Positions 734-63,350 of a DNA stretch of 64,000 bases are shown piece by piece. The stretch is taken from contig CANQJT010000004.1 in assembly GCA_947624325.1 (NCBI GenBank), positions 1 through 64,000 on the forward strand, written 5' to 3'. Each line of letters starts with the position of its first letter. Position 1 is the stretch's first letter. Made by a program: the position numbers and the translations under genes. This stretch comes from Candidatus Gastranaerophilales bacterium. Lineage in GTDB: Bacteria; Cyanobacteriota; Vampirovibrionia; Gastranaerophilales; Gastranaerophilaceae. Under the pieces are notes generated by a model that saw only the letters and a program-made list of their open reading frames with translations, was not told the DNA's origin and made no database searches.

Positions 734-764
734 TTGCAACGGGGGGGGGTAAAAGTGGTATAAT
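734..764 (+). promoter_or_regulatory. Promoter of the Kelch gene with a poly-G spacer
   Basis: A TATAAT -10 box (759-764) is preceded by TGG, forming an extended -10. The best -35 is TTGCAA (734-739), 19 bp upstream. Nine consecutive G (741-749) fill half of the spacer. Loss of one or two G would bring the spacing to 18 or 17 bp. The arrangement resembles known phase-variable promoters such as Neisseria porA. The switching itself is inferred. Confidence 0.6.
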
Positions 765-57428: not shown

Positions 57429-58925
57429 ATGGAAGAATATTTAAAGAATAAAAATTTTAAATGCTTAATGTGGGTTTTTATAATAATTTCAATAGTCCAC
57501 GTTATATATGCAGCAGTGACAATGAGGGGAATGTACGAAGACGGTGCATTCTATATGCTTGATCAATTAAACAGCTACTCCAACGGTATATTTAAAATAT
57601 CAAATGATTTCTCTCATCCGAGATTTTGTATTATGTTACTTTTGGACTTACCTTCAATGTTTGCTTTTTGGGTGCTGCATATACATAATAAATTTGCATT
57701 AATGATGATTTTTAGCTGTTCTTTGTTTCTTTTGCCCTTATTAGCTTTATGGTGGAACTATGTCCTGACTAAAAAAACAAAAAGACTTGATATTTTTTAT
57801 TGGTCTTTATTCTCATATTCTTTAATTATTATTACTTTCTCTATTTTTTCAGTAGTTGAATGTATTTTAGGAAGTATGCTCCACTTTGTATTATGGAATT
57901 ATTTGGCAGGAAAACTTGAATATAACAAAAAAGATTTAATATTAATTACTTTTCTTATTATAGTTATGTTTGGTACTTTTGAATATGTAATTATTCTCGG
58001 CTTAATTTTCTTTATCGCTTCACTATTGTATGCTAAACAAGAAGAAAATATTAAAAACAAAGCGGTCAAACTATATATAGGCATAGGGGCTCTTGGAGCT
58101 TCTATTTTTAACTTAATTTTTGCACTAAATGTACCCGGAGAAAAAGAAGAAATCACAAGATTTTTTATTGAAGGGTATAACTATTTACCGCATCTTTTAG
58201 AATTAAATTCTTCCATAAGTATCATAACTTTAATAATATTATTGGGTTTAATATTTAATAAAAAATCCATAGCATTAAAATCTATAATAATATTTTCATT
58301 AATATATATTCTCAATTTTATCAGATTGATTAATACAAGCTTATCTTCTGTTTCACCAATGTGGGAACAGCATATAAGAACCGTGCCTTGTTTTAGTATT
58401 CCTCTAATTTTTATTGTAATTTTCTTGTTTGATATACTCAAAAAAGAACAAAATTATATTAAATTAACAAACTATATTTGTATAGTTCTAATGTGCGGAA
58501 TAATGCAAACCGCTTGGCAGTTAGTTGATACATACTATTGGGATAAAAATATTCAATATATGAAATCTGAGCTGAACAAAACTCAGGATTTATTATACAT
58601 TCCGTCTGACCATGAAGAGATTTCAAGCTTTTTTAATCCTGCCTTAAGAAGATATATCTGGCATGGTGTTTTTACATCAACAAGTATTCTTTTTTCTGAA
58701 AGTTATGAGCAAAAAACATTATTATTAAACTATGATGAACCCATAGATGGCGGAAACGGAAGTTACAGAGAATTTTTATATATACCAAAAAATAATCCGG
58801 ATATGATTGCAATCCCTTGGGGCTGGTTTAATATAAAAAACAAATTTTGGGATTTAACAAAATGTGCGGATGCCCTGAAAAAATATGATATAGAACATAA
58901 TATAGAAAGTAAATTTAATGAATGA
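57429..58925 (+). CDS. Tandem polytopic membrane protein, copy 1 (GT-C-like?)
   Basis: The 498-residue protein has about ten predicted membrane helices. MRGMYEDGAFYML (residues 32-44), an acidic loop after the first helix, and HPRF in the first external loop recall the catalytic-loop acidic residues of GT-C glycosyltransferases. IHNKFALMMIFSCS and the C-terminal AIPWGW..IKN.FWDLTKCA are shared by all four copies. It has no G run (LAGKLEYNKK at that site). Its stop overlaps the copy 2 start by 8 bp. No characterised family was recognised. Confidence 0.6.
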   Translation: MEEYLKNKNFKCLMWVFIIISIVHVIYAAVTMRGMYEDGAFYMLDQLNSYSNGIFKISNDFSHPRFCIMLLLDLPSMFAFWVLHIHNKFALMMIFSCSLFLLPLLALWWNYVLTKKTKRLDIFYWSLFSYSLIIITFSIFSVVECILGSMLHFVLWNYLAGKLEYNKKDLILITFLIIVMFGTFEYVIILGLIFFIASLLYAKQEENIKNKAVKLYIGIGALGASIFNLIFALNVPGEKEEITRFFIEGYNYLPHLLELNSSISIITLIILLGLIFNKKSIALKSIIIFSLIYILNFIRLINTSLSSVSPMWEQHIRTVPCFSIPLIFIVIFLFDILKKEQNYIKLTNYICIVLMCGIMQTAWQLVDTYYWDKNIQYMKSELNKTQDLLYIPSDHEEISSFFNPALRRYIWHGVFTSTSILFSESYEQKTLLLNYDEPIDGGNGSYREFLYIPKNNPDMIAIPWGWFNIKNKFWDLTKCADALKKYDIEHNIESKFNE

Positions 58926-60414
58926 TTTTTTAAATAATAAATGTTTTAAAATCTTAATTTTATTATTTATATTAATATCTATAATTCATATTATATATGC
59001 AACAATAACGATGCGAGGGATGTACTTAGACGGGGCATTCTATATGCTTAATCAATTAGACAGCTTCTCTATGGGAATTATTAAAATATCCCATGATATA
59101 TCTCATCCCAGATTTTTTATAATGACCCTACTACAAATTCCGACAATTCTTTCTTATTTTATTTTAAAGATACATAATAAATTTGCACTAATGATGATTT
59201 TTAGTTGTTCTATATTCCTTTTGCCCTTATTAGTTTTATCGTGGAACTATCTTCTTACTAAAAGGACTCAAAGATTTGATATTTTCTTCTTCTCGTTATT
59301 TTCTTATTGCGGAATAATAACCGTTTATTTAATATACGGAATTGTTGAATCTATATTAGGCTGTATGCTTAATTGTATTTTATGGAATTATTTAGCTGCA
59401 AAAATAAACTATACTAAGAAAGATTCAATTATAATTGCATTTTTAACTATACTATTGTATCAAACATTTGAATATATTATTTATATAGGTATAATTTTCT
59501 TTATTGCATCAATTATGTATGCAAAAAGAGAAACAAATCTTAAAAACAAAATAACAAAATTTTTAATAGGAATAGGCTCACTTGGAGCATCAATATATAA
59601 TTTATTTTTCATAATAAAAGTACCGGGCGAATATAGTGAAATTATAAGATTTTTTAAAGAAAGTTATTTTTATTTTTCACATATAACAAACCTCAATATT
59701 TCAACAAGTATAATTACATTAATATTTCTAATTTTTATAGCATTAAAAAAAGAATCAACAGGAATAAAAACAATTTTCTTATTTTCTTTAATTTGTATTA
59801 TTAATTTTGTAAGATTATTAGTATCATTAAAAACATCTATATCACCATTATATGAAAGTTCCTTTCGGACATTGATTTGTTATGCTTTTCCGATAATGAT
59901 AATAATAACTTGTATTTTAGATTTTAAGCAAAAGGAACAAAACCTAATTAAAATTAAAAATTTGATATGTATAGTATTAATATGCGGTATATTTCAAACT
60001 GCTTGGCAGATAGTTAATACATATTATTGGGATAAAAATATTCAATATATGAAATCAGAATTGAATAAAACTCAAGATTTATTATATATTCCCTCTGAAC
60101 ATGAAGATATATCGGGAAATATAAATCCTGAATTAAGACGATATATACCATACTGCTGTTATGCAACAATGAGTATATTATTTTCTGATACATACGAACA
60201 AAAAACATTATTATTAAATTATGACGAAGAAAGAGATCAAATTAATTTATCTTACAGAGAATCATTATTTGTTCCCAAGAAAAATAAAGAATTTATAGCA
60301 ATCCCTTGGGGCTGGTATAATATTAAAAATGAATTTTGGGATTTAACAAAATGTGCGGAAGCACTGAAGAAATATGATATAGAACATAATATAGAAAGTA
60401 AATATAATGAATGA
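58918..60414 (+). CDS. Tandem polytopic membrane protein, copy 2
   Basis: The 498-residue protein shares MRGMYLDGAFYML, HPRF, IHNKFALMMIFSCS and the conserved C-terminal AIPWGWYNIKNEFWDL block with the other copies, but the DNA is the most divergent of the four. There is no G run. The segment after about residue 225 differs strongly from the others. The gene overlaps copies 1 and 3 by 8 bp. Confidence 0.6.
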   Translation: MNDFLNNKCFKILILLFILISIIHIIYATITMRGMYLDGAFYMLNQLDSFSMGIIKISHDISHPRFFIMTLLQIPTILSYFILKIHNKFALMMIFSCSIFLLPLLVLSWNYLLTKRTQRFDIFFFSLFSYCGIITVYLIYGIVESILGCMLNCILWNYLAAKINYTKKDSIIIAFLTILLYQTFEYIIYIGIIFFIASIMYAKRETNLKNKITKFLIGIGSLGASIYNLFFIIKVPGEYSEIIRFFKESYFYFSHITNLNISTSIITLIFLIFIALKKESTGIKTIFLFSLICIINFVRLLVSLKTSISPLYESSFRTLICYAFPIMIIITCILDFKQKEQNLIKIKNLICIVLICGIFQTAWQIVNTYYWDKNIQYMKSELNKTQDLLYIPSEHEDISGNINPELRRYIPYCCYATMSILFSDTYEQKTLLLNYDEERDQINLSYRESLFVPKKNKEFIAIPWGWYNIKNEFWDLTKCAEALKKYDIEHNIESKYNE

Positions 60415-61870
60415 ATTTTTAAATAATAAAATATATAAATTTTTGATGTGGTTTTTTATAATAATTTCAATAGTCCACGTTATATATGCAACAGTAACAA
60501 TGAGAGGAATGTATATGGATGGTGCCCATTACATGTTAAACGAATTAAACAATTATTCAAACGGCATATTAAGATTTTCATTTGATATAACACATCCCAG
60601 ATTCTTTATTTTGGCATTATTAGAATTACCATCAATGATAGCTTTTTTTGGGTTACATATACATAATAAATTCGCATTGATGATGATTTTTAGTTGTTCT
60701 ATGTTCCTTTTGCCCTTATTAGCTTTATGGTGGAACTATGTCCTGACTAAAAGAACAAAAAGACTTGATATTTTTTATTGGTCTTTATTTTCATATTCTC
60801 TAATTATTATTACTTTCTCTATTTATTCTATTGTTGAATGTATTTTAGGAAGCATGCTCCACTTTGTATTATGGAACTATTTGGCAATGGGGGGGGGGAG
60901 TAAATATAACAAAAGAGATATAGCTTTAATTACTTTTCTTATTATAGTTATGTTTGGAACATATGAATATGTAATTATTCTCGGCATAATTTTCTTTATC
61001 GCAGCATTAATGTATGCTAAACGGGAAGAAAATATTAAAAATAAAGCTGTTAAATTATATATAGGTATAGGTGCTCTTGGGACTTCTATTTTTGACTTAA
61101 TTTTTGTACTGAATGTACCCGGAGAAAAAGGAGAGTTTTTAAGATATATAAATGAATTGTATATTAATATACCCAATTTATTTAATTTAAATCTTTCAAT
61201 AAGCTTTTTAACCTTGCTATTATTATTTTTATTGATATTTATACAAAAAAATTTAAATAATAAATTTTTAATTTTTACAATTTTTTTATTTGTTATAAAT
61301 TTTACATCTCTTTGTAATAAATTATATTTTTCTCTATATCCTTTAGGAGAACAATCTCTTAGAGTAATTGCTTGTTTTGCACTTCCTATAATTTTTACAA
61401 TAATATTAATATTTGATATACTCAAAAAAGAACAAAATTATATTAAATTAACAAACTATATTTGTATAGTTTTAATGTGCGGAATATTTCAAACCGCTTG
61501 GCAATTGATTGATACATACCATTGGGATAAAAATATTCAATATATGAAATTTGAGCTTAATAAAACTGAAGATTTTTTATATATTGCTCCTGAACATGAA
61601 GAAATATCAAGTTATTACAATCCAAAGTTTAGAAGATATATTGCAGACTGGGTATTAACTGCAACAAGTATATTATTTTCTGAAAGTTATGAACAAAAAG
61701 CATTACTTATATTATATGGTACATATATTCCTAAAGATAATAAAGATATACTTGCAATTCCTTGGGGTTGGTATAATATTAAAAATGAATTTTGGGATTT
61801 AACAAAATGTGCAGAAACACTGAATAATTACAATATAGAACATAATATAGAAAGTAAATATAATGAATGA
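60407..61870 (+). CDS. Tandem polytopic membrane protein, copy 3, with a 10-G run
   Basis: The 487-residue protein has the same architecture (MRGMYMDGAHYML, HPRF, IHNKFALMM). Ten G at 60889-60898 encode M-Gly-Gly-Gly from residue 161 in a loop. One G more gives TAG-type termination at once (GAG TAA), and one less reaches TAG within eight codons, so slippage would truncate it. The gene is currently in frame. The 5' end (137 bp) and a 3' block (116 bp) are identical to copy 4. Confidence 0.65.
   Translation: MNEFLNNKIYKFLMWFFIIISIVHVIYATVTMRGMYMDGAHYMLNELNNYSNGILRFSFDITHPRFFILALLELPSMIAFFGLHIHNKFALMMIFSCSMFLLPLLALWWNYVLTKRTKRLDIFYWSLFSYSLIIITFSIYSIVECILGSMLHFVLWNYLAMGGGSKYNKRDIALITFLIIVMFGTYEYVIILGIIFFIAALMYAKREENIKNKAVKLYIGIGALGTSIFDLIFVLNVPGEKGEFLRYINELYINIPNLFNLNLSISFLTLLLLFLLIFIQKNLNNKFLIFTIFLFVINFTSLCNKLYFSLYPLGEQSLRVIACFALPIIFTIILIFDILKKEQNYIKLTNYICIVLMCGIFQTAWQLIDTYHWDKNIQYMKFELNKTEDFLYIAPEHEEISSYYNPKFRRYIADWVLTATSILFSESYEQKALLILYGTYIPKDNKDILAIPWGWYNIKNEFWDLTKCAETLNNYNIEHNIESKYNE
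60889..60898 (+). repeat. Poly-G run in copy 3
   Basis: Ten consecutive G in an AT-rich coding sequence, in frame, in a loop at residues 161-164. A typical contingency-tract length. Confidence 0.9.
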
Positions 61871-63350
61871 ATTTTTAAATAATAAAATATATAAATTTTT
61901 GATGTGGTTTTTTATAATAATTTCAATAGTCCACGTTATATATGCAACAGTAACAATGAGAGGAATGTACTTAGACGGGGCTTTTTATATTCTTGATCAA
62001 TTAAATAGGTACTCTAATGGAATATATACTATAACTTCTTGTTCAGATCACCCCAGATTTTTTATATTGACATTACTACAATCACCATCAATTATAGCAT
62101 ATTCTATTTTACATATACATAATAAATTCGCATTAATGATGATTTTTAGCTGTTCTATGTTCCTTTTGCCCTTATTAGCTCTATGGTGGAACTATGTCCT
62201 GATTAAAAAAACAAAAAGACTTGATATTTTTTATTGGTCTTTATTTTCATATTCTTTAATTATTATTACTTTCTCTATTTTTTCCATAGTTGAATGTATT
62301 TTAGGAAGTATGCTCCACTTTGTATTATGGAATTATTTGGCAATGGGGGGGGGTAAATATAACAAAAGAGATATAGCTTTAATTACTTTTCTTATTATAG
62401 TTATGTTTGGTACTTTTGAATATGTAATTATTCTCGGCTTAATTTTCTTTATCGCTTCACTATTGTATGCTAAACAAGAAGAAAATATTAAAAACAAAGC
62501 GGTCAAACTATATATAGGCATAGGGGCTCTTGGAGCTTCTATTTTTAACTTAATTTTTGTACTAAATGTACCAAATGAAAAATGGGAAATTATAAGATTT
62601 TTTAATGAAATTTATGTTACACTTCCTCATATATTTAATATAAATTTTTCAATAAGTTTGATTACAATACTAATGCTTTGTATATTAATATATAAAAAAA
62701 GAAAAATTGATTTTAAATTAACTTTATTGTTTATTTCTTTATTTATCTTGAATTTTATACGAATTTTATATTGTATTTCAACCTCTTTAAATCCAATGTA
62801 TGAACAAGCTCTAAGAGTAATTGCTTGTTTTGCACTTCCTATAATTTTTACAATAATATTAATATTTGATATACTCAAAAAAGAACAAAATTATATTAAA
62901 TTAACAAACTATATTTGTATAGTTTTAATATGCGGAATATTTCAAACCGCTTGGCAGTTGGTTGATACATACTATTGGAATAAAAATATTCAATATATGA
63001 AATCTGAGCTTAATAAAACTCAAGATTTATTATACATTCCGTCTGAACATGAAGAAATATCAAGTTTATATAATTCTAACTTAAGAAGATATATATGGCA
63101 CAGAATGTATGCAGCAACAAGTATAGTTTTTTCTGAAAGCTATGAACAAAAAACATTGCTGGTAAATTATGATTATAATTATGAGCCAATGCAGGGACAT
63201 CATAGAGAATATTTATATGTCGTTGATAATACAACTATAGCAATACCTTGGGAAAAATTTAATATTAAAAATAAATTTTGGGATTTAACAAAATGTGCGG
63301 ATGCACTCCAAAAGTATGATATAGAACACAATATTAACCAAGATAAATAA
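61863..63350 (+). CDS. Tandem polytopic membrane protein, copy 4, with a 9-G run
   Basis: The 495-residue protein shares MRGMYLDGAFYIL, HPRF and the IHNKFALMM block. Nine G at 62345-62353 occupy the same codon position as in copy 3, and a shift of one base either way gives a stop within eight codons. The DNA is a mosaic: identical to copy 3 at the 5' end, identical to copy 1 over 181 bp in the middle, and identical to copy 3 near the 3' end. tilS follows after 20 bp. Confidence 0.65.
   Translation: MNEFLNNKIYKFLMWFFIIISIVHVIYATVTMRGMYLDGAFYILDQLNRYSNGIYTITSCSDHPRFFILTLLQSPSIIAYSILHIHNKFALMMIFSCSMFLLPLLALWWNYVLIKKTKRLDIFYWSLFSYSLIIITFSIFSIVECILGSMLHFVLWNYLAMGGGKYNKRDIALITFLIIVMFGTFEYVIILGLIFFIASLLYAKQEENIKNKAVKLYIGIGALGASIFNLIFVLNVPNEKWEIIRFFNEIYVTLPHIFNINFSISLITILMLCILIYKKRKIDFKLTLLFISLFILNFIRILYCISTSLNPMYEQALRVIACFALPIIFTIILIFDILKKEQNYIKLTNYICIVLICGIFQTAWQLVDTYYWNKNIQYMKSELNKTQDLLYIPSEHEEISSLYNSNLRRYIWHRMYAATSIVFSESYEQKTLLVNYDYNYEPMQGHHREYLYVVDNTTIAIPWEKFNIKNKFWDLTKCADALQKYDIEHNINQDK
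62345..62353 (+). repeat. Poly-G run in copy 4
   Basis: Nine consecutive G, in frame at residue 161, aligned with the run in copy 3. One extra G creates an immediate TAA. Confidence 0.9.

Follow-up and report, generated by a model that had tools for sequence, protein, structure and literature searches.

The third and fourth copies in a tandem array of four paralogous genes are, in our assessment, very probably translationally phase-variable, with switching by slipped-strand mispairing in an in-frame poly-G run. The two copies appear to be part of a set of ~60 likely switches in this genome, translational and promoter-spacer, that lie mostly in cell-surface genes. The source genome, that of a Candidatus Gastranaerophilales bacterium (1.98 Mb, 98.9% complete), is assembled in 20 contigs, and the window, the whole 64-kb stretch analysed here, is part of one of them, C4. 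Its four tandem paralogs (487–498 residues each, at 57429-63350) are the sole copies of this gene in the genome, and neighbours overlap by 8 bp (ATGAATGA), a gene overlap that the earlier note had described and that the ORF coordinates confirm. Identities to copy 3 below are at the protein level.

57429-58925, forward strand: paralog copy 1, an ORF of 498 aa without a G run, 72% identical to copy 3
58918-60414, forward strand: paralog copy 2, an ORF of 498 aa without a G run, 58% identical to copy 3
60407-61870, forward strand: paralog copy 3, an ORF of 487 aa with an in-frame G10
60889-60898, forward strand: G10 run of copy 3, starting at the third base of codon 161 (ATG)
61863-61870, forward strand: overlap of the copy 3 end and the copy 4 start, 8 bp, ATGAATGA
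61863-63350, forward strand: paralog copy 4, an ORF of 495 aa with an in-frame G9, 74% identical to copy 3
62345-62353, forward strand: G9 run of copy 4, starting at the third base of codon 161 (ATG)

The earlier note had placed G10 in copy 3 and G9 in copy 4 at residue 161, with no run in copies 1 and 2. Both lengths and both positions hold in the sequence, and at the codon-161 site copies 1 and 2 read GCAGGAAAA and GCTGCAAAA, respectively. Copies 3 and 4 differ at the run by G9 versus G10 plus AG, and both are in frame. Its further claim, that a one-base change brings an early stop, is borne out at 0–7 codons past the run: the two other frames stop 0 and 7 codons past it in copy 3 and 0 and 6 codons past it in copy 4, where one more G does give GGG TAA. 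Two observations count against phase variation, namely that both copies are open in the assembly and that the runs lie about one-third of the way into the gene, away from the start. The locus is syntenic, with a tilS-like gene 3' of the paralogs here and in relatives. Six relatives of the paralogs were found in named records, five from Candidatus Gastranaerophilales assemblies (four of them labelled ‘Lapin’, that is, probably rabbit isolates) and one from a goat-caecum bacterium. An Rfam scan of the window gave no match.

The paralogs are most likely GT-C-like membrane glycosyltransferases, an assignment made by fold alone and at a modest structural score. AlphaFold modelling with 11 homologs gave a mean pLDDT of 75 and a pTM of 0.80, and the structural matches that span the model are mostly GT-C enzymes (ArnT, oligosaccharyltransferases, AftA and PglB). 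The ArnT match reached Z 8.0 over 336 residues, although a Z of 8 is not decisive for helical proteins, and Foldseek scores were weak (E 0.04 or worse). Like ArnT, PglB, STT3 and AftA, the modelled paralog appears as a multi-helix membrane fold, here over residues 3-437. D38, an acidic residue of the first loop, is invariant in 11 homologs and is a candidate for the catalytic acidic residue that GT-C enzymes carry in their first extracytoplasmic loop. Sequence searches, in contrast, named no family: for the four paralogs, Pfam returned no model above cut-off and a PDB sequence search no match, results that are still compatible with GT-C membership.

The run of copies 3 and 4 falls within the loop that joins helices 144-160 and 168-181 of the model. 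It encodes M-G-G-G, which replaces G-K-L-E; open alleles should therefore fold. That loop position, where extra glycines would be harmless, also suits a different explanation, in which the runs are functionless, tolerated by-products of slippage or gene conversion whose length drifts neutrally. Nearly all homologs lack the run, as this explanation would have it. At the run site relatives read GGCGGGAAAAATTAATTAT or similar, and among 52 homologous loci (some redundant) no G/C run exceeds 5 bases except in genome G202 (L160), which carries a C9 in the next loop and on the other strand. The C9 is evidently a second, independent origin of a run in the same gene family, and such a recurrence argues against a by-product. 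We regard neutral drift as very improbable, and the length spectrum, carriers and promoter runs described below also speak against it.

Within the array, the shared position of the run seems to have another source. Copies 1–4 are mosaic, with identical blocks amid stretches that are only 50–75% identical. One such block is the following.

62379-62559 (approximate ends), forward strand: block of copy 4 identical to copy 1, 181 bases, alignment columns 519-700

This block sits just after the run, and elsewhere copy 4 shares identical blocks of 107 and 116 bases with copy 3; variable-site permutation gave P 0.0002 for both pairs. The 181-base block thus has every appearance of recent recombination between copies. 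Given the mosaic copies, duplication or gene conversion best accounts for the common codon position; independent origin in copies 3 and 4 was considered and dropped, as mosaic copies favour shared descent. In G159 (L111:1400-1700), a paralog homolog is interrupted by a frameshift close to residues 190-203 that does not coincide with a G run.

Runs of this kind far exceed chance expectation. The window holds 7 overlapping G8 matches against 0.25 expected from shuffles, and the genome holds 62 G/C runs of at least 8 bases against ~4.8 expected (0.9 for runs of at least 9) under a first-order Markov model computed with long runs removed. Across 294 kb, comprising the window and the stretches surrounding runs, we counted 436, 39, 1 and 0 runs of lengths 4, 5, 6 and 7, followed by 4, 33, 20 and 5 of lengths 8, 9, 10 and 11. 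The gap at 6–7 marks the long runs as a separate class and is hard to reconcile with neutral drift. A loss of mismatch repair was rejected as an explanation for the long runs, since this genome has MutS1 and MutL homologs, both above cut-off (the MutS match has one TAG inside); with these present, instability must stem from run length alone.

Some of the runs lie in promoter-like sites. Neisseria porA-type promoters carry a poly-G run in the spacer, and a third G run of the window, which the earlier note does not mention, has a comparable place.

741-749, forward strand: G9 run between TTGCAA (734-739) and TATAAT (759-764)

A kelch-like ORF (798-1955) lies downstream of this G9, which is probably a promoter-spacer switch and a member of a genome-wide set. 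About nine runs, this one among them, have a TTGCnn-like box on one side and an extended -10 (TGGTATAAT) on the other, several of them upstream of genes for kelch-like proteins. Recurrence with a fixed layout is not what functionless by-products would give. The run-plus-promoter pattern has 8 matches in this genome, 4 in G174 and 0 in the other family genomes searched; the promoter motif was accordingly rejected as a family-wide feature, its 22-base pattern being confined to this genome and G174 among 191. At one locus a unit made up of a kelch-like gene, the G10 run of its promoter and the ORF before it occurs as a near-identical tandem pair (L062:4990-6219 and L062:7225-8454).

Genome-wide, most Pfam hits of the run carriers belong to surface-glycan and surface-protein families, with carriers that include glycosyltransferases, sugar-nucleotide enzymes, methyl-, acyl- and pyruvyltransferases, pilins, and kelch and autotransporter-like proteins. 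The set has, by its gene content, the make-up of a phasome, and so strong a carrier bias is a further point against by-products. Two UbiA-like paralogs (L042:2689 and L053:4542) carry runs in one short stretch, at nearby but differing positions. There are 41 coding runs with an open frame on both sides (at least 30 codons before the run and at least 20 after), 26 in frame and 15 shifted. Closed examples include a sugar-nucleotide dehydratase-like gene (L042:7741, G11) and a TPP enzyme (L053:2858), each enzyme being recognisable across the run. Two genes, with their runs at L049:13497 and L050:1122, encode proteins 95% identical over 466 residues; their 671 aligned bases contain a single indel, a C of the run, which sets the frame and leaves one gene open and the other closed. 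The earlier note's reading of copies 3 and 4 as phase-variable contingency loci is favoured by the length class of the 62 runs, by the surface carriers, by the coexistence of open and closed states and by this one-base-different pair.

Long runs are widespread in the family, with runs of at least 9 bases in 158 of 191 genomes and in 37 of 41 genera, at 0 to 128 per genome. Many lie near the start of prepilin-like genes in G103 and G209, which belong to this genus, and in G022, from another genus, and most of the run-bearing prepilin-like genes that were read in these three genomes are out of frame as assembled. The narrow range of run lengths (9–10) and this prepilin-like state, which would be odd if each gene needed a DNA change for its production, fit an action at the RNA level, by which transcript slippage or ribosomal frameshifting would yield full-length and short protein whatever the DNA length. 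Yet the 41 coding runs show no fixed phase, near-identical paralogs have different run lengths, and promoter-spacer runs cannot act in this way; we therefore hold RNA-level action to be very improbable.

Several further features of these genes and of other runs in the family were noted. Prepilin-like genes (FTLAEVLITLGIIG) carry the G or C run at about codon 5-12 (G103, L112-L127; G022, L128-L136; G209, L148-L156; and in the present genome L064:4050, L065:2562 and L067:2508), and nearly all of those read, the present genome included, are assembled out of frame, which gives the impression of a large pilin repertoire whose default state is off. In G209, prepilin-like genes of either orientation (L148 versus L150 and L151) start with a similar segment, TGCCAC-G9-TATTTTCA, as if leader and run had been inverted. 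In G014, from another genus (L138, L140, L143 and L145), runs occur in dispersed repeats, G10-TAAACCGCTC and G10-TGAATGCTAA, that are not obviously within genes.

The breadth of this distribution also bears on whether the poly-G calls are an assembly or sequencing artefact. In favour of an artefact, this genome comprises 20 contigs, the relatives in named records come from metagenome assemblies, and exact lengths of long runs may be miscounted. Against an artefact, both flanks of the run belong to one gene that can be aligned throughout to run-free homologs, the same site bears a run in more than one paralog, and runs are found again in promoters with a fixed layout and in nearly all genera of the family. 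We give an artefact hardly any probability.

The DNA around the runs has a recurrent form in the present genome (G000), G174 and G103, from which the context set was drawn (the window, L041-L070 and L096-L127). It approximates WWWWNSSNNY before the run, with a pyrimidine directly before it, and WA after. Of 64 runs with a T directly behind them, 62 have A as the base after that T, versus 28% after short G runs. In G000, runs before T are mostly G9 or shorter and runs before A mostly G10 or longer (31/7 versus 6/18, P 1.4e-5). Across 54 deduplicated non-promoter runs, a post hoc position scan of the bases before the run gave a GC fraction of 0.11–0.19 for positions -10 to -7, of 0.63 for -5 and of 0.56 for -4; the background is flat at ~0.3. 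The rule is seen on both coding strands and outside genes, which excludes TA after runs as a stop-codon effect. It is possible, if unlikely, that a process dependent on sequence, and not random expansion, creates or maintains the runs in this genus. As speculation, G9TA could become G10A if misalignment (dislocation) mutagenesis changed the T next to the run to G; this would account for the length rule but not for the TA.

Phase variation is strengthened as the reading of copies 3 and 4 by the promoter-spacer runs, the family-wide runs, the loop position and the independent run in G202. The run would have arisen once in the array, with duplication or gene conversion then carrying it to the other copy. 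Slipped-strand mispairing at the run would add or remove one base, the shifted frame would meet a stop within 0–7 codons to leave a ~160-residue fragment with the rest of the enzyme missing, and a later slip would return the frame. Turning the putative membrane glycosyltransferase on or off would presumably alter a surface glycan, and two switched copies over two constant copies would allow four combinations. Switching copy 3 off may also lower copy 4, a polar effect consistent with the 8-bp overlap.

Among the closest known systems are the poly-G contingency loci described in Helicobacter canadensis (PMC2823697) and in Campylobacter jejuni (PMC4965091, PMC8437040). As in the present genome, G runs there lie within genes and in promoter regions of AT-rich genomes, carriers include glycosyltransferases, methyltransferases and surface proteins, and several genes are frame-shifted in the reference sequence. 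Runs in those species are about 8–14 bases long, whereas those here are shorter, at 8–11; reads there show length differences and experiments show switching, whereas the runs described here are seen in an assembly; and the host here is a gut commensal of a Cyanobacteria-related lineage rather than a campylobacterium. Neisseria surface genes likewise combine coding runs with runs between -35 and -10 boxes in a surface-directed repertoire (PMC5084427, PMC5953494), although the genes are unrelated to those described here and the promoter layout differs, with a putative extended -10 and a 19–21 bp gap in the present genome.

We judge this to be ordinary slipped-strand phase variation in a lineage for which the open-licence literature yielded no earlier report: among open-licence papers, a search joining this lineage with phase variation returned nothing relevant. 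Poly-G switch sets of this kind are known mainly from pathogens, and a 2025 review (PMC11868660) counts among the major questions why pathogens alone seem to have genomes rich in phase-variable loci, or whether database bias creates that impression. The poly-G runs of this uncultured gut family, up to tens per genome and, in the genomes that were read, located chiefly in genes for surface glycans, pilins and other surface proteins, make that question testable with existing gut metagenome reads. For these bacteria, surface traits inferred from an assembly may represent one of many states.
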